A stretch of DNA of 64,000 bases, from positions 744,001 to 808,000 of the forward strand of contig NZ_CAKZGO010000004.1 of assembly GCF_936916975.1 (NCBI RefSeq), in the 5' to 3' direction. The position numbers and the translations under genes are program-made. Under the pieces are notes generated by a model. The model was not told the origin of the DNA and did not search any database. It saw nothing but the letters and a program-made list of their open reading frames with translations. Every line of letters starts with the position of its first letter. Positions within the stretch are counted from its first letter, which is position 1. Shown piece after piece: positions 13,706 through 26,098 of the stretch. Origin of the DNA: an uncultured Dongia sp. (GTDB lineage Bacteria; Pseudomonadota; Alphaproteobacteria; Dongiales; Dongiaceae).

Positions 13706-14542
13706 TCAGCGCTTCTCCAGCCACAGGGATGTGGCGAGGTTATCGGACATTGGCAGCGTCGCCACCAGCGACGCTGCCAATTCCTTTTTCAGCCGTGTCT
13801 GCGCAAAGCGACTGGCAAAGAGCGGGCGATACGCGCCGCTGGTCAACATCGGCAGAATTACCAGCTGTTCGTTGTATCCGCGCCAGGTCCATTCCGCGGG
13901 GTAGTCATCGGGCAGGAAGATGTCATGGATATGGATCAGCACGCCGCTGGGCAGCCGCGGCAGGATGCGGTTGAAGAGCTGGTCGACATCGGAACCAGGC
14001 ATCAGGATATGGCTGGAATCGATGAACAGGATGTCGCCGGGGCCGAGCGCGCCGAAGTCGGCGGGATCGGCTGCACCCAGCAGGCAGCGCTGCAGCTCCA
14101 CGCGCAGTTTGCTGCAATCGGCCCGGGGTGCCGGATCGATGGCACAGTGGCGCGTCGTAAGATTGCTATCGGCAATCGCGCGCGCGGCGAAGCGGGTGGA
14201 ATGGCCCGAGCCGATTTCCAGGAGCAGGCGCGGCGCATGCGTGCGGATCATCGCATAGAACATCGCCGCGTCGAGTGTGGCAAACCAATCCTGGTTCCAG
14301 CGCGGCGCAGGCGCTGCCGCATCGGCGCTGATACGCAACAGATCATCGCGGTAGCGGTCCAGCATCGCGAGCGCGGCGACAAAATCGCCGCGGGCCGCCA
14401 TGAACAGATCATGCGCCACATCATAAGTGGAGGGCGCGTCGATTTGATCCGCATAGCGATAGGGGATGAAGAAGCCGCGCGGTCGCGTGCCGATCAAGGT
14501 GGGGAGGCCCAGGGCCAGTTTTCGCCAGAAGCCGGTCGGCAT
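13706..14542 (-). CDS. Class I SAM-dependent methyltransferase
   Basis: 278 aa from the ATG at 14542, chosen because upstream codons encode low-complexity, non-conserved sequence. The Rossmann motif I is LLLEIGSGHSTRFAARAI, motif II ends in the acidic HCAIDPAP, and the post-motif strand reads DILFIDSSHIL, as in the Methyltransf_24 group. Later it has GVLIHIHDIFLPDDYP and WRGYNEQ. Proteins of this type methylate small molecules or glycans, often near polysaccharide genes; the substrate is not deducible. It is the last gene of a minus-strand stretch starting with ribA, though 111 bp separates it from its upstream neighbour. Confidence 0.78.
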   Translation of the reverse strand: MPTGFWRKLALGLPTLIGTRPRGFFIPYRYADQIDAPSTYDVAHDLFMAARGDFVAALAMLDRYRDDLLRISADAAAPAPRWNQDWFATLDAAMFYAMIRTHAPRLLLEIGSGHSTRFAARAIADSNLTTRHCAIDPAPRADCSKLRVELQRCLLGAADPADFGALGPGDILFIDSSHILMPGSDVDQLFNRILPRLPSGVLIHIHDIFLPDDYPAEWTWRGYNEQLVILPMLTSGAYRPLFASRFAQTRLKKELAASLVATLPMSDNLATSLWLEKR

Positions 14543-14653: not shown

Positions 14654-15763
14654 CTAGCCGCGGCCACCACTCATGTCGCGCGTCCAGGAGGTCGCGGGCT
14701 GCTGGTATTGGGCGATGGCGGCATCGGCCGTCTGCGTGGTGCTGCCGGACTCAGCCGAGGCCAGCTGACCACCATCGGTTCTGCCGAGATTGAGATCGGC
14801 TTCTTCGGGCGTCCGGTTATCGATACCGAAGATGCGGGCGGCGAGATCCGTGCCGGCATCGCGGCCGGTCTGGGACCGGACCATCGTGTCCACCACAGCG
14901 CTGGCGACCGAGATCGGACCAAACGGCAAGGCGCCGACAAAGGCCGAGAGGCCATAGGCCTGGTCGCCGGTCACTGCCCGGTAGATCTGCGCCACGACGG
15001 GGATATGCTGCAGCGGGTTGATGATATCCACGAAATCATCCCAGCCGAATTTGCCGTCCGGCCCCAGGAACAGTTCGCGGGCGCCGGGGGTTTCCTTCAT
15101 GTGCCAGGTCTTGCCTTGGGCGCTCAGACTGCGCTGCTCTTCCCGGTCGGGATAGTGGTCGAGCATGACCACTCGAGGATCGGTGGGCTGGGCGTCAGCA
15201 GATTCCGTTGGCTCCGACTCGACCGGCACGCCATCGGTCAGTTCCGCCACCTGCGGTGCTTTAGCGGGTTCTTCCGGTTCGGCGACGGCCGGCATGCCGT
15301 CCGCCATCTCGGCAACCGGCTCCACCGTGCCGCTGGCCAGCTGGATGCCCCCCGGATTACCGGGTATCAACGGGTCGGCAGCAGGAACCGCAGCAGGAGC
15401 CTCGGGGGGTGAAATGCCGGTCAGCGCGGCAAATTGTGCCAAGGTCAGCGTGGGAACGCCGTCGCTGGGCGCTGCAGCCCGACTGGCGGCCACAGATGGC
15501 TGCGGAGCAGGTGCTGCAGGGGTTCCAATCGGTGCCGCACCGCCCGAGGAGCCAGCCAGTTTGCGATAATCGGCGAGCGTCAGCCCGGCGGGCGCCGCGG
15601 CAACCTTGCCTTGATTCTGTTGCTGATATTGGGCCTGGAGCAGCTGCTGGAACTGGCTCTGGTCGATCGAGCCCGGGCGCAGGACACCACCGCTGATGGC
15701 CCCATTCTGGCCACCCGCTGGATAAGGCGCTGTCACCCCTGCGATGCTCGGATATTCCGCCAC
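14654..15763 (-). CDS. Pro/Ala-rich hypothetical protein with conserved NPLQHIP module
   Basis: 369 aa, function unknown. The first 220 residues are low-complexity, rich in Ala, Pro, Gln and Glu, with two copies of a short TLADY/TLAQF-type motif (GLTLADYRKLAG at about 60 and TLTLAQFAALTG at about 104). A compact conserved-looking module follows at about 233-305: FGWDDFVDIINPLQHIPVV, AQIYRAVTGDQAYG, then a Gly-rich hydrophobic stretch that could be membrane-associated (FVGALPFGPISVASAVVDTM). No signal peptide is seen. Neighbours (methyltransferase, ribA) give no functional clue. Confidence 0.55.
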   Translation of the reverse strand: MAEYPSIAGVTAPYPAGGQNGAISGGVLRPGSIDQSQFQQLLQAQYQQQNQGKVAAAPAGLTLADYRKLAGSSGGAAPIGTPAAPAPQPSVAASRAAAPSDGVPTLTLAQFAALTGISPPEAPAAVPAADPLIPGNPGGIQLASGTVEPVAEMADGMPAVAEPEEPAKAPQVAELTDGVPVESEPTESADAQPTDPRVVMLDHYPDREEQRSLSAQGKTWHMKETPGARELFLGPDGKFGWDDFVDIINPLQHIPVVAQIYRAVTGDQAYGLSAFVGALPFGPISVASAVVDTMVRSQTGRDAGTDLAARIFGIDNRTPEEADLNLGRTDGGQLASAESGSTTQTADAAIAQYQQPATSWTRDMSGGRG

Positions 15764-17307: not shown

Positions 17308-18003
17308 ATGAGCTTGACCCACCAGCGCCGTATCCTGCTCGTCGACGACGACGAGGCATTGCGCAAGACCCTGGCCGAGCAGCTCGCCGTCGACGGTGAA
17401 TTCACCTGCGTCGAAGCCGGGACAGCCGCCGATGCCCTCACGACGGCGCAGCGTGAAAAGCCCGATGCCATCCTGCTCGATGTCGGCTTGCCCGATGGCG
17501 ACGGCCGCCAGGTCTGCCAGGCGCTGCGCAAGGCCGGCATCAGCGTCCCCATCATCATGGTGACCGCGTCGTCGGGTGAATCCGATACCATCCGCGGCCT
17601 CGACATGGGCGCCAATGATTATATCTCGAAGCCTTTTCGCCTCGGTGAATTGCTGGCGCGGCTGCGGGCGCATTTGCGCCAGCACGAGCACAGCGAAGAT
17701 GCGCTCATCCCCATCGGTCCCTATGTCTTCAAGCCCAATGTGAAGATGCTGGTCGATGAGAAGGCCAACAAGAAGATCCGCCTCACGGAGAAGGAAACCG
17801 CGATCCTCAAATATCTCTACCGCGCCGAACAGCGTGCGGTCGGGCGCGAGACCTTGCTGGGCGAGGTCTGGGGCTACAATGCCGGCGTCACCACGCACAC
17901 GCTGGAAACCCATGTCTATCGCCTGCGCCAGAAGATCGAAAAGGATCCCGCCAAGGCGCAGATCCTGATCACCGATGCCGGCGGCTACAAGCTGGTGCCT
18001 TAA
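17308..18003 (+). CDS. OmpR/PhoB-family two-component response regulator (orphan)
   Basis: 231 aa. The receiver domain has the acidic pair D13/D14 (LVDDDEALR), phospho-acceptor D58 (ILLDVGLPDGDG), T/S (MVTASS) and the conserved lysine (ISKPF). A C-terminal winged helix (about 140-230) shows LTEKETAILKYLYR and VTTHTLETHVYRLRQKIE. No histidine kinase is adjacent, so its partner is elsewhere. It is unlikely to be PhoB itself, because the receiver and linker lack the typical PhoB opening and phoR is 5 kb away on the other strand; this is a judgement only. A hairpin-rich 349-bp region follows. Confidence 0.87.
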   Translation: MSLTHQRRILLVDDDEALRKTLAEQLAVDGEFTCVEAGTAADALTTAQREKPDAILLDVGLPDGDGRQVCQALRKAGISVPIIMVTASSGESDTIRGLDMGANDYISKPFRLGELLARLRAHLRQHEHSEDALIPIGPYVFKPNVKMLVDEKANKKIRLTEKETAILKYLYRAEQRAVGRETLLGEVWGYNAGVTTHTLETHVYRLRQKIEKDPAKAQILITDAGGYKLVP

Positions 18004-18352
18004 CACACGCACACCAGAATGGGTGGAAGGTTGCGCCGGGGCCAGAGTTGGCACTTTGCCATCTTGCAACCATTGCGGAAAATTCATTTCTATATCAATA
18101 GCATGAAACGTTTCCGACTAAGCCTTTTCGCGCCTGAGCCGGCAGCGCGGCGATCCTGGCATTGTGTGATGCGCATCATTTTGGCAGCAAAGGCTGCCTG
18201 CCTTATGATAGCAGCAACGCCGTCGCGGTGAGCGCGACCTGCGCCCCGATCGGATCGCGGGGCCGGCCGACACGAAAGCATCATCGCGGCGCGGCACATT
18301 ACCGGAAGGCGACGGCAAGCGATTCCTGCCGGCGCCGATGAAGGGGTCTGTC
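18004..18352. other. 349-bp intergenic region with stem-loops, no gene seen
   Basis: No plausible coding sequence. A nested structure lies close to the regulator's stop: outer arms GGTTGC (18029-18034) and GCAACC (18066-18071) enclose a perfect TGGCA-3-TGCCA hairpin (18049-18061). A second hairpin is GGCAGC (18183-18188), AAAG, GCTGCC (18193-18198). The middle part (18075-18115) is A/T-rich and is the likeliest promoter region for the caspase-like gene. A GAAGGGG ribosome-binding site is at 18340-18346. Confidence 0.5.
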
Positions 18353-20452
18353 ATGAAGGGGTATCTCCACCGGCTCTTTGCCGGCGCATTTCTTGTAGCG
18401 GTCGCTTTGCTGCCGGCACCGGCCGACGCTGAATCGACGCGCGTGGCGCTGGTCATCGGCAACGGTGATTACGATGCATCGCTGGGCCGGCTGCGCAATC
18501 CAGCCAATGACGCCAAGCTGATGGCGCGTTCCCTGAAGAAGTTGGGCTTCGAGGTCTCGCTGGCCATCGATATCGATCAGAAGGAAATGAAGCGGCGCAT
18601 TCGCGATTTCGGTGAAGCGCTGAGCGGCGCCGGGCCGAATGCTGTCGGCTTGTTCTATTACGCGGGCCATGGCCTGCAGGTAGATGGCGAGAATTTCCTG
18701 TTGCCGGTCAGCGCCCAGATCGAAGCCGAGCGTGATGTTGAACTTGAGGCCGTTTCCGCCAATGCCGTGTTGGCGCAAATGCAGTACGGCAACAGCAATG
18801 GCGTCAACCTCGTCTTTCTCGATGCCTGTCGCAACAATCCTCTAAGCCGCGGCTTCCGCTCGGCCACGCGTGGCCTCGCGCGGGTCGATGCACCGCGGGG
18901 CAGCTTCGTCGGCTATTCAACGGCACCCGGCGAGGTATCGGTAGACGGCGAGGGCGACAACAGTCCTTACACTCTGGCGCTGACAGAGGAATTGCTGCGA
19001 CCCGGCGAAGCGATCGAGGAAGTGCATCGCGCGGTACGGCTCAAGGTTTTGGCCGCCACGAGTGAACAGCAGACGCCCTGGGATTCGTCCTCGCTCACTG
19101 CTACCGTCATCCTGGCCGGCGCCGCGCAACCAGCCATTGTCGCACAGACGCCTGCACCCGCACCGGCGGCTGTCGTCGCAGCACCTTCTTCGGGCAGTCA
19201 CGAGACCGAAAACCTCTATTGGCAATCCGTCCTCGCCAGCAACAACCCAGCGATGTTCCAGGCCTATCTGAAGAAATACCCGAACGGCCAATATGCGGAT
19301 CTCGCTGTTCTGAAACTCGAAGAATTGAGCGGCAAGATGCCGTCCAACACTGACTCTGCGATGGCCGCCGCAGCACCCGCACCTGCACCCGTACCGGCGG
19401 TCGTCACGCCAGCCGCACCTGCCGCAAAGGTGCACGATTTCGGCATCATCGAAATGAATGGTGCCTATATCGCCGACAAGAACGCCAATATCCGTGCCGA
19501 ACCCAACACCAAGGCCAAGATCGTCGGCAAATTGACGTCGCAGCAGAGTGTCATCGTGACCGGCCGGACCCAGGATGCGGCTTGGCTGCAAGTGGCAAGT
19601 GCCGCCGGTCCCGGCTATGTGAGTGCGCAACTCCTCAAGACGGATCCATCCGTCGCCCTGCGCACGCCTGCGCCGACGCCGGAACCCGAACCGATGGCGC
19701 CGGCGCCCAAGGCGAATGCGCTGCGCCTGTCCGATAAGCTGCGGCCGGAGATCGAGAAGTACCTGGCGAACTCCGCCAAGCAAAAAGGCAATTACCGTTT
19801 CCTCGCGGTCAACGCGGCCGGCGACAAGCTTGGCCTATCGATTGGCTGCAAAATCCAGAAAACCAGCTGGGGCGGTTGGGCGGCAGAAGGATGCGGTGAA
19901 GAAGCCGACGCAAGGCAATTGGCCATAGACACCTGCGGCAGTGATTGCCGCGTCATCTTCAAGGGCGCCGAGAAGGTCGGTGATTTCGAGATCGACTGGG
20001 TCAAGAACGATGGCAGCACGGAACCGGCCGACCTTGTCGCGGCGGCACCTGAGGGCGAAACACCGGAGAGCGTGAACCCAGGGAGCCAGCCTGAGGAGAG
20101 CGCGGAGCCCGCCGCGGTGGAGATACCCGTCAAGACAGCGAGCGCTGCGCCCGAGGATGATTCCGTCATGCGCATCTCCGAATCGCTGCGGCCGAAGATC
20201 GAGCAGTATCTTGCCAATTCCGAAAGTCAGACCGGCAACTACCGCTTCCTGGCGCTCAACCAGGCCGGAGACAAGCTCGGCCTGTCGATCGGCTGCAAGA
20301 TCAAGAAGACCAGCTGGGGTGGCTGGGCCTCCGAAGGCTGCGGCGACGAAGCCGCGGCAGCGCGACTGGCGGTCGATACTTGCGGCAGCGATTGCCGAAT
20401 CATCTTCAAAGGTGCTGAGAAGGTGGGGCGTTTCGAGATCGAGTGGTACTGA
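18353..20452 (+). CDS. Secreted caspase-like (peptidase C14) protein with SH3 domain and twin Cys-rich repeats
   Basis: 699 aa from the ATG at 18353, which follows GAAGGGG at proper spacing. A signal peptide (to about residue 27, PADA) leads into a caspase p20-like domain (RVALVIGNGDY, about 30-245) with catalytic dyad H106 (FYYAGHG) and C159 (FLDACRNNP). After an Ala/Pro linker come a short helical-repeat-like stretch (about 285-330), a bacterial SH3 domain (about 368-425: ANIRAEPNTKAKIVGKL) and two copies of a 93-residue domain (about 456-549 and 605-699), roughly 80 percent identical, each with four cysteines (SIGCKI, EGCG, DTCGSDC). Bacterial orthocaspases cleave after Arg/Lys; the role here is unknown. 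Two residues after its stop the convergent MFS gene ends. Confidence 0.8.
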   Translation: MKGYLHRLFAGAFLVAVALLPAPADAESTRVALVIGNGDYDASLGRLRNPANDAKLMARSLKKLGFEVSLAIDIDQKEMKRRIRDFGEALSGAGPNAVGLFYYAGHGLQVDGENFLLPVSAQIEAERDVELEAVSANAVLAQMQYGNSNGVNLVFLDACRNNPLSRGFRSATRGLARVDAPRGSFVGYSTAPGEVSVDGEGDNSPYTLALTEELLRPGEAIEEVHRAVRLKVLAATSEQQTPWDSSSLTATVILAGAAQPAIVAQTPAPAPAAVVAAPSSGSHETENLYWQSVLASNNPAMFQAYLKKYPNGQYADLAVLKLEELSGKMPSNTDSAMAAAAPAPAPVPAVVTPAAPAAKVHDFGIIEMNGAYIADKNANIRAEPNTKAKIVGKLTSQQSVIVTGRTQDAAWLQVASAAGPGYVSAQLLKTDPSVALRTPAPTPEPEPMAPAPKANALRLSDKLRPEIEKYLANSAKQKGNYRFLAVNAAGDKLGLSIGCKIQKTSWGGWAAEGCGEEADARQLAIDTCGSDCRVIFKGAEKVGDFEIDWVKNDGSTEPADLVAAAPEGETPESVNPGSQPEESAEPAAVEIPVKTASAAPEDDSVMRISESLRPKIEQYLANSESQTGNYRFLALNQAGDKLGLSIGCKIKKTSWGGWASEGCGDEAAAARLAVDTCGSDCRIIFKGAEKVGRFEIEWY

Positions 20453-20456
20453 GCGA

Positions 20457-21614
20457 TCAGCGCAGCCGTGGCGCCAGGGTCAGCGCCAGCAGAGCTGCCA
20501 GCGTCGTGATGCCGGCGACGACAAAGGCAGCGCCGGCCCAGCCGAGGCTGCCCTGAAACAGCCAGGCCATCACGATAGGCCCCAGAAACACGCCGGAATT
20601 GCGGCCGGTCATCAGCACGCCATAGGCCTTTGGCCCAGCCTGCACATGCGCGAGGTTGTGCGGCAGGTGAAAGAAGCAGGCGGGTGCCACGCCCGCACCA
20701 ATGCCAAACACGATCAGCATCAAGAGACCCGGGATGCCATCAAGCCACGGTGCTGACAGCCAGACCAGCGCCTGCAGCAGCAAGGCGGTCACCAGCGCCG
20801 GCAGCAGTTTCAAGCCACGCGCAAGCCACCAGCCGGTACCGATGTTGAACACCATCACCACGACCACCGGCAGGAGATAGGCAAGGACCGCCAGCGTGGC
20901 GCTGAGATGCAATTCGCCCGTGAGATATTTCGTAAGCCAGGTCATGAAGGCGAAGAATTGCAGTGACCAGAGCAGGAAGATGCCGGCGCCGATGATGAGG
21001 CCGCGATCGGTCTTCAACGATCGCGTAGCGCCGGTGGGAAGCTTGATCGGCCCCAGCCAGCGCCGCTGCAGCAGCGCAGCGAGACCCAGCGGAATCATCA
21101 ACCCCAGATTGATCAACCACAGTGCCTGCCAGTCGGCACCGGCCAGGGCAAGCAACCCTGCCAGCAACTGGCCGATCGGAATCCAGGCGGCGATCAGGCC
21201 GGTGACAAGGCCGAGATCGCGCCGCGCTGCAGCGGAATTGGCGATCACCGGGCCGATGAGGGCGAAGATCGCAAAGGTAAAGCCTTCGAAACCGCGTGCC
21301 AGCAGCATGAGGGGACCGGATTGCGGCGCGCCGAGGCCGAGCAGGATGCCCATGGCGGCAATGATGAGGCCGACCCCCAGCGCCCAGGCCAAGGCATGGC
21401 GTTCCAGCAACCGGCCGATCGGGGCGGAGGCGAGGAGACCGACCAGGGCGAAGACCGACATGAAACCTGCGGCCACATCGACACTGTGGGGATATTCGCC
21501 GAGGAAGGCGGGGAGGATCGGGGGCAGCTTGAACTGCAGGAAGGCGCCGAACGCGCTGATGCTGACCCCCAGCATCACCACCGGCCAGTAGGTTTCGTCC
21601 CTGTTAACCGTCAA
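20457..21614 (-). CDS. MFS transporter
   Basis: About 385 aa with twelve hydrophobic segments. The start is placed at the TTG at 21614, which is preceded by GGAG at good spacing and opens the protein just before the first membrane helix; the in-frame codons upstream encode polar, Cys-rich sequence untypical of the family. The A-like motif between helices 2 and 3 reads GLLASAPIGRLLERHA, and helix 4-5 has ARGFEGFTFAIFALIGP. It could be a cyanate/CynX-like or general drug transporter; no substrate can be named. It converges on the caspase-like gene with a gap of four bases. Confidence 0.8.
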   Translation of the reverse strand: MTVNRDETYWPVVMLGVSISAFGAFLQFKLPPILPAFLGEYPHSVDVAAGFMSVFALVGLLASAPIGRLLERHALAWALGVGLIIAAMGILLGLGAPQSGPLMLLARGFEGFTFAIFALIGPVIANSAAARRDLGLVTGLIAAWIPIGQLLAGLLALAGADWQALWLINLGLMIPLGLAALLQRRWLGPIKLPTGATRSLKTDRGLIIGAGIFLLWSLQFFAFMTWLTKYLTGELHLSATLAVLAYLLPVVVVMVFNIGTGWWLARGLKLLPALVTALLLQALVWLSAPWLDGIPGLLMLIVFGIGAGVAPACFFHLPHNLAHVQAGPKAYGVLMTGRNSGVFLGPIVMAWLFQGSLGWAGAAFVVAGITTLAALLALTLAPRLR

Positions 21615-21796
21615 TAACCATACTCCGTGATCTACGTCACACTTTCGGCAAACTGAACGCGCCCAAAAGCTTACCGCTTTACTTTGCAAGCGGCCCAAAC
21701 AATGCCATCATTCGGTCGGGCCGGGTAGAAGGGTGAAACCGGACGGCTAAGGATGGCGGTCGGCTAGACGGGGACGCCTAAAAAGGATTGAGTGTT

Positions 21797-25381: not shown

Positions 25382-26098
25382 TTACGTGCCGCGTTTCCGA
25401 TAAGCGTCCCACAAATCGGGCCGCCGTGATCTCGTCGTCTCCTCGGCCTGGGTCTGACGCCAGGCCTTGATCTTCTCGTGATGCCCGGACATCAGCACCT
25501 CGGGCACCGCTCGTTCGTTCCATACCGCCGGCCTGGTGTAATGCGGGTACTCCAGCAAGCCGGCCGTAAAACTCTCTTCGTCCAACGTCTCTTCTGCGCC
25601 CATCACACCGGGCAGCAGCCGCACGCACGCATCGATCAAGGCCAGGGCGGCCGGCTCACCACCCGAGAGCACGAAATCGCCGAGGCTCACCTCGATCAAT
25701 CCACGCGCCTCGATCACCCGTTCGTCCAACCCTTCGTAGCGGCCACACAAAACCACCACGCCGGGTCCCGTCGCCAACTGCCCCACCAGTTCCTGCGTCA
25801 GCAGGCGCCCGCGAGGCGTCAGATAGATCGCCGGCCCTAAACCATCAGCGCTTGCCGCAGCCAGCGCCGCATCAACCACGTCAGGCCGCATCACCATCCC
25901 GGCGCCACCGCCGAAGGGTGTATCGTCGACCGTGCGATGCTTGTCCGGGGCAAAGTCCCGGATCTGCATCGTCTCCAATCGCCAGATGCCCTTCTCCAAG
26001 GCCTTGCCGGCAAGACTCTGACCCAAGGGACCCGGAAACATTTCCGGAAACAGGGTCAGAATGCGCGCCGTCCAGGCTTTGCGGACGTCGGTCACCAC
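25382..26098 (-). CDS. trmD: tRNA (guanine-37-N1)-methyltransferase
   Basis: 238 aa SPOUT-fold enzyme that methylates G37 of tRNAs to prevent frameshifting. Starts with GTG. The core reads [30 protein letters not shown], the knot segment [16 protein letters not shown], and [16 protein letters not shown]-like sequence ([14 protein letters not shown]), then the C-terminal [20 protein letters not shown] and [11 protein letters not shown]. Two bases separate it from the rimM stop, so it is translationally coupled within the ribosomal/SRP run. Length and motifs are complete. Confidence 0.97.

Follow-up and report, generated by a model that had tools for sequence, protein, structure and literature searches.

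A putatively exported paracaspase-like protein with a doubled four-cysteine unit in an uncultured Dongia species

Results

The caspase gene and its surroundings

We analysed a 64,000-nucleotide stretch of DNA (the window) from an uncultured Dongia sp. of the family Dongiaceae, whose genome assembly comprises 5.48 Mb on 47 contigs; genome G005 belongs to the same genus. The window encodes a caspase homologue that ends in two similar cysteine-rich units (Table 1). A second in-frame ATG lies 15 nt upstream of the start used here, which is favoured because of the Shine-Dalgarno-like motif preceding it. By eye, the N-terminus resembles a Sec-type signal peptide, with a basic start (MKGYLHR), a hydrophobic stretch and ADA, and the N-termini of four full-length unit-bearing relatives, which also look alike by eye, support this assignment. 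The protein is probably exported, in line with the original prediction, and the SH3 domain proposed for it exceeds the Pfam threshold (SH3_3, PF08239; 40.8 bits against a cut-off of 27, E 2.5e-10). A loose pattern of the short TPR-like motif occurs in 28 of 78 caspase relatives. PADLOC recognised nothing in the protein beyond the caspase domain, and among the 268 records of a plasmid collection that matched the caspase, none had a single place covering 80% of the query.

Table 1. Features of the caspase gene and its flanks, in window positions
Feature	Position	Strand	Basis
Response regulator (Response_reg + Trans_reg_C)	17308..18003	+	Pfam; also upstream of the G001 caspase
Shine-Dalgarno-like AAGGGG, 6 nt before the ATG at 18353	18341..18346	+	Sequence inspection
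Caspase ORF, 699 residues	18353-20452	+	Open reading frame
Sec-type signal peptide (putative), residues 1-26, cleavage inferred after ADA	18353..18430	+	By eye
Caspase domain (Peptidase_C14), residues 29-251	18437..19105	+	Pfam; modelled fold
Catalytic His106	18668..18670	+	Sequence; conserved in 78/78 relatives (set A4)
Catalytic Cys159	18827..18829	+	Sequence; invariant in 78/78 relatives
Three-helix TPR-like motif, short, residues 282-325	19196..19327	+	Helices in model
Bacterial SH3 domain (SH3_3), residues 377-429	19481..19639	+	Pfam
Four-Cys unit 1, residues 456-549	19718..19999	+	Self-alignment, alignment of units, repeat finder
Linker between units, residues 550-604	20000..20164	+	pLDDT <50 over residues 562-603
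Four-Cys unit 2, residues 605-698	20165..20446	+	Self-alignment, alignment of units, repeat finder; single-domain model
MFS transporter, converging on the caspase gene	20457..21698	-	Also in G001 and Dongia mobilis

Gene order around the caspase is conserved in genome G001, where each of the ten window genes compared has its counterpart; the set runs from the ORF at 13706 to that at 25628, which by eye is rplS. In Dongia mobilis, MFS, metallo-hydrolase and YkuD genes neighbour the caspase gene. The gene itself is cut there by two contig ends (L045 and L046); because these share 749 identical bases, we place the assembly break inside the gene, which was counted once. A 369-aa ORF at 14654-15763 on the reverse strand of the window is also syntenic in G001 (58% identity over 352 residues) and has no Pfam match.

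The catalytic domain

Peptidase_C14 (PF00656) matches the protein with 135.6 bits (cut-off 21.4, E 2.9e-39). The predicted His/Cys dyad is intact: His106 lies within YYAGHG (from residue 102) and Cys159, the sole cysteine of the catalytic domain, within FLDACRNN (from residue 155). Both residues are invariant in the 78 relatives of set A4, a set drawn from the 80 top-ranking loci among 555 confirmed relatives and comprising 78 of the 91 references listed. All ten solved chains that match the caspase domain within E 0.001 are MALT1 (E 4.7e-11), and the modelled fold aligns with MALT1 at Z 25.6 (2.7 A over 210 residues) and with caspase-6 at Z 23.8. As judged by sequence and model, the catalytic domain is paracaspase-like, with MALT1 nearest. 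In MALT1, death and Ig-like domains flank the caspase domain; as regards a paracaspase in this MALT1 sense, a Pfam scan of the window protein up to E 1 found neither.

Asp53 and Asp157, again invariant in 78 of 78 relatives, align with two MALT1 residues which we take to be the acidic pair of its S1 pocket. Because both acidic positions are kept, cleavage after Arg or Lys is a fair prediction for the window caspase, with Asp53 and Asp157 as its sole support. It agrees with the specificity of orthocaspases as given in the available text of an earlier study (PMC6426788).

The four-cysteine repeat

The two C-terminal units comprise 94 residues each, with 72 identical positions (77%; 218 of 282 at the DNA level), and their cysteines are at 499/514/528/532 in unit 1 and 648/663/677/681 in unit 2. 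The duplication that had been described as about 80% identical over 93 residues is real, with these as its exact values. The pair was also recovered by a repeat finder (278 nt at 78%, spacing 447). Unit 2 as query in the host genome retrieved unit 1 at E 5.6e-47, which excludes a chance resemblance, and 40 of the 94 third codon positions differ between the copies, which rules out an assembly echo.

The proposal that the duplication is recent was rejected as unsupported. The dS between the copies is 0.96, similar to the 0.92 for the caspase domain compared with its syntenic single-unit orthologue in G001; by this sequence measure, the duplication looks about as old as the split between host and G001. 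A tree groups the two window copies together with a modest support of 73. The dN/dS between the copies is 0.15 and all eight cysteines are kept, which suggests that both are under constraint. The exact pair on a caspase was seen in the host genome alone; as a feature of all orthologues it is ruled out by the syntenic genes of G001 and Dongia mobilis, which carry one unit each.

Modelled alone, unit 2 reaches a pLDDT of 83 with the topology strand-helix-strand-strand-strand-helix-strand-strand. All four cysteines are invariant in eight of eight related units of the same class (class A), and each unit is probably locked by two disulfides.

Candidate identities of the unit

DUF4189 (PF13827) had been named as a family that might account for the repeat. 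In HMM searches it matched neither window unit up to E 1, and among wider units it appeared in one of eight class-A units (E 0.11) and one of 13 wider members (E 0.1), all below the cut-off; another match, at E 0.062, amounts to 14.3 bits against a cut-off of 25. With these Pfam matches all below the cut-off, the unit was rejected as DUF4189 proper. The DUF4189 cut-off is exceeded by one three-unit protein of the family, whose third unit gives the best match. The WACN end motif, conserved in DUF4189 according to the available text of PMC10269737, is absent from the window units, which end in FEIDW and FEIEW with no cysteine there.

A remote link is nevertheless likely. Compared with four DUF4189 regions, the unit profiles scored 33.0 and 32.8 (class A), 22.5 (joint) and 17.6 (class B, see below), and none of 60 shuffles reached any score (maximum 18.3 for class A and 14.5 for class B), over short alignments of 21-27 columns that cover a helix-strand piece with AL..C...C. 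An earlier comparison had used hand-trimmed rows of set A7, in which row L040 kept an extra N-terminal helix; the later one used four untrimmed regions. From these profile alignments, the unit is likely to be distantly related to a single DUF4189 lobe, extended by an N-terminal helix and a further cysteine pair. The available description of Rv1813c presents DUF4189 as a fold not described before, in which two beta/beta/alpha/beta lobes face each other and two disulfides are present (PMC10269737). Even a DUF4189 identity would leave the function unsettled, because Pfam describes the family as of unknown function and its single studied member is a secreted mycobacterial protein with a reported action on host mitochondria (PMC10269737, in the text available).

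As the original prediction had it, the unit lacks a convincing family model in Pfam or NCBIfam. Other Pfam hits were weak single-member matches, the best being DUF2748 (E 0.0083 in one of eight units) and the rest weaker; the best NCBIfam match had E 0.025. Against solved structures, the unit profile reached at best E 0.18, and Foldseek with the unit model E 1.6. Of seven rows listed in a structure search with the unit model, five were MPN or BRCC36 entries and two subunits of large complexes, none above Z 3.4; the MPN-like (JAB1/MPN) rows were too weak to build on. YARHG (PF13308) gave no Pfam match in the window caspase or its two units up to E 1.

Spread of the four-cysteine domain

A single unit as query found matches in 7 of 17 genomes of the family, and the class-A profile matched 4 of 385 class genomes, all of the host's genus. 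The C-terminal unit of a second caspase type in these bacteria, to which a host paralogue on contig C20 belongs, is related but has its cysteines spaced differently (class B). The two classes score 61.9 against each other with a 10-row class-A set and 44.5 with an 8-row set; no column shuffle (0 of 200 each) reached the real score, the maxima being 19.6 and 21.9, respectively. We used a joint 13-row profile as search model for the wider four-Cys domain, in which three of the four cysteine columns are invariant and the second cysteine shifts. With this profile, 12 of the 17 family genomes proved to contain the domain, at 6-13 copies each in two genera. Outside the genus it matched, more weakly, at least 8 of 380 other genomes of the class draw, and in the phylum draw at least 4 of 398 (the host, G001, G038 and one more); both draw counts are lower bounds, with at most 13 candidates per genome scored.

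The host genome holds 13 copies, three on caspases (two on the window caspase, one on the C20 paralogue) and ten on other ORFs; of the latter, eight have a lipobox-like motif and two a signal peptide by eye. Two or three units occur together in some proteins (frames of 222, 290, 302 and 422 aa). In MAG-103, a second caspase bears a pair of diverged units in its tail and is followed, on the same strand and 105 bases further on, by a 145-aa ORF for a free-standing unit; in the host, the nearest free-standing unit on the caspase's contig is more than 300 kb distant. Genomes G012 and G013 contain the domain (2 and 7 matches) and no caspase like the window caspase (P0001) at E 0.001, so that the domain has a role apart from such caspases. 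As delineated by these searches, the four-Cys domain is an unnamed family, expanded in the host's bacterial family mostly as small lipoprotein-like proteins.

Locus L198 (G000:C36:12290-12898) has, side by side, two ORFs for free-standing four-Cys lipoprotein-like proteins (122-aa frames), and neighbouring pairs of such ORFs are present in other family genomes too. At L205 (G662), what by eye looks like an exported alpha/beta-hydrolase ends in a unit with a weak relationship to the domain (E 2.7e-4), and the module may therefore extend beyond caspases.

Tails and cysteines of caspase relatives

Within set A4, the caspase core has exactly one cysteine in 77 of 78 proteins, and the tails contain an even non-zero number of cysteines in 62 cases, an odd number in two and none in 14 (62 of 64 cysteine-bearing tails are even). 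With random parity, two or fewer odd tails among 64 would be expected at about 1e-16 by our own arithmetic, a figure that overstates the weight of the pattern because the sequences are related and come from the best 80 of 555 loci. The set leaves out nine rows that were cut by a contig end or had a short tail (L046, L054, L066, L072, L077, L084, L089, L102 and L117), as well as four additional paralogues from L082 and L086; rows L063, L078 and L094 reach the locus end, and their tails may be partial. In a separate count of 111 ORFs, which includes duplicates and uses a different domain end, 12 of the 13 left-out references (all but L046, which is absent from that count) have even or zero tail cysteines, and the odd tails include L013 and L015 (three each, not in A4) and L087 and L103 (one each). 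The host genome encodes DsbB. The cysteine pattern is in keeping with proteins that are exported and have a single catalytic thiol besides cysteines paired in disulfides, and one core cysteine plus an even number in the tail is a possible signature of oxidising-compartment caspases.

The tails of the 78 relatives contain, among the 25 of 46 families listed, FGE-sulfatase (15), SH3_3 (11), PG_binding_1 (11), Sel1 (5), YARHG (3) and DUF4189 (2) domains. Tails need not be binding arms, since an FGE-sulfatase domain occurs in 15 of the 78. P0001 found four caspases in the host, with tails of the window type, TPR-like, FGE-sulfatase-like (both by eye) and class B. The SH3 part seems dispensable, because the Dongia mobilis orthologue has, by eye, no room for it. 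At L133 of a genome of the same genus (G004), a DUF4189 ORF on the reverse strand lies near a caspase ORF on the forward strand.

Discussion

We propose, with moderate confidence, that the window caspase is a periplasmic paracaspase-like Arg/Lys endopeptidase positioned by disulfide-locked binding modules. Our computations show the fold and catalytic residues of the protease, the repeat together with its relatives and its expansion, and constraint on both copies; export, disulfides, cleavage specificity and a binding role we infer. The exported protease would cut after Arg or Lys in the periplasm, as predicted from its S1 positions, and its C-terminal arm (TPR-like motif, SH3 domain and two four-Cys units) would bind an envelope ligand or partner and so place the protease on it. 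Each unit would be held by two disulfides, and the second would provide two-point (avidity) binding. In the full-length model (pTM 0.45), the position of the units is not predicted with confidence.

The units might instead bind their own kind: those on the caspase would dock to their counterparts on small exported lipoproteins, and these lipoproteins would tether, cluster or proximity-activate the protease, by analogy with the adaptor domains of animal caspases. The domain is indeed common to caspases and many lipoprotein-like proteins, MAG-103 has a free-standing unit after its two-unit caspase, and in Rv1813c two DUF4189 lobes face each other, as the available text describes (PMC10269737). 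However, G012 and G013 have the domain without such a caspase, and the distance to the nearest free-standing unit on the host contig also speaks against this arrangement, which, though attractive, we regard as unlikely. Its widest form, in which the domain would be an alphaproteobacterial periplasmic homotypic docking module and lipoproteins would recruit and activate exported caspases in a lineage-specific network, we consider very unlikely; if true, this network would be an extracytoplasmic counterpart of adaptor-caspase assembly.

There are two further readings. The second unit could be a lineage-specific copy of little effect, with one unit doing the work, and the one-unit genes of G001 and Dongia mobilis would suit this; but the low dN/dS, the eight retained cysteines and the tandem units on the second MAG-103 caspase and in free-standing proteins argue against a chance duplication, to which we give little credence. 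Alternatively, the tail could act as a propeptide with a regulatory function, holding the active site in check until the tail is cleaved off. The model has low-confidence, probably flexible linkers (pLDDT <50 at residues 270-280, 332-362, 431-448 and 562-603), and Lys and Arg are present in the tail by eye, yet the differing tail domain families of the relatives do not suit one shared inhibitory fit, and the low-confidence full-length model places the units neither way; such a role is quite unlikely. In likelihood, we rank both of these readings below the ligand-binding arm.

That exported caspases have varied tails, and that a secreted caspase can carry a tandem pair of small domains, is already known: bacterial caspase homologues with varied, often extracellular tails have been described (PMC3501461, in the text available), as has, in 2012, Bradyrhizobium A5ECX2, a secreted caspase with a tandem YARHG pair (PMC3355149, likewise). 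The view that the window protein has no standard architecture is borne out in that the exact pair was seen in one genome, and qualified by the diverged pair of MAG-103, the many tails of the relatives and the YARHG-pair caspase, as far as its description goes (PMC3355149). Literature searches on caspases with DUF4189 returned nothing beyond a paper on a mycobacterial protein, those on Dongia with caspase nothing related, judged by titles, and those under phrases for periplasmic, exported or secreted caspases nothing. New as far as searched are the four-Cys domain, its expansion in one family, its occurrence on caspase tails and lipoprotein-like proteins, and the cysteine pattern.

The window caspase is a concrete member of a large, little-studied group, the exported bacterial caspases, and its analysis defines an unnamed domain, of which the genomes of two genera in one alphaproteobacterial family encode 6-13 copies each. 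The cysteine pattern suggests a caspase branch adapted to an oxidising compartment and bears on roles of bacterial caspases beyond cell death.

With the known bacterial caspase homologues (PF00656; ortho- and metacaspases), the protein shares the His/Cys pair, the fold, a place among varied tails and, as in many of them, a likely signal peptide, as the available account has it (PMC3501461); it differs in its two four-Cys units without a convincing Pfam match. A5ECX2 has the same order of signal peptide, caspase domain and C-terminal tandem pair of one small extracellular domain, but YARHG is described as likely four helices in the text available (PMC3355149), whereas the window unit is modelled as alpha/beta with four cysteines. 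DUF4189, as portrayed for Rv1813c (PMC10269737, available text), has similar small exported beta/alpha lobes with disulfide-bonded cysteines. Its helix-strand segment aligns with the window unit above all column shuffles; in contrast, the window unit has an N-terminal helix and an extra cysteine pair, lacks the WAC motif and stays below the Pfam cut-off. MALT1 is an animal cytosolic, adaptor-regulated protein. Although the window caspase is without its Ig-like and death domains in Pfam, both appear to share the catalytic fold and the acidic residues of the S1 pocket.
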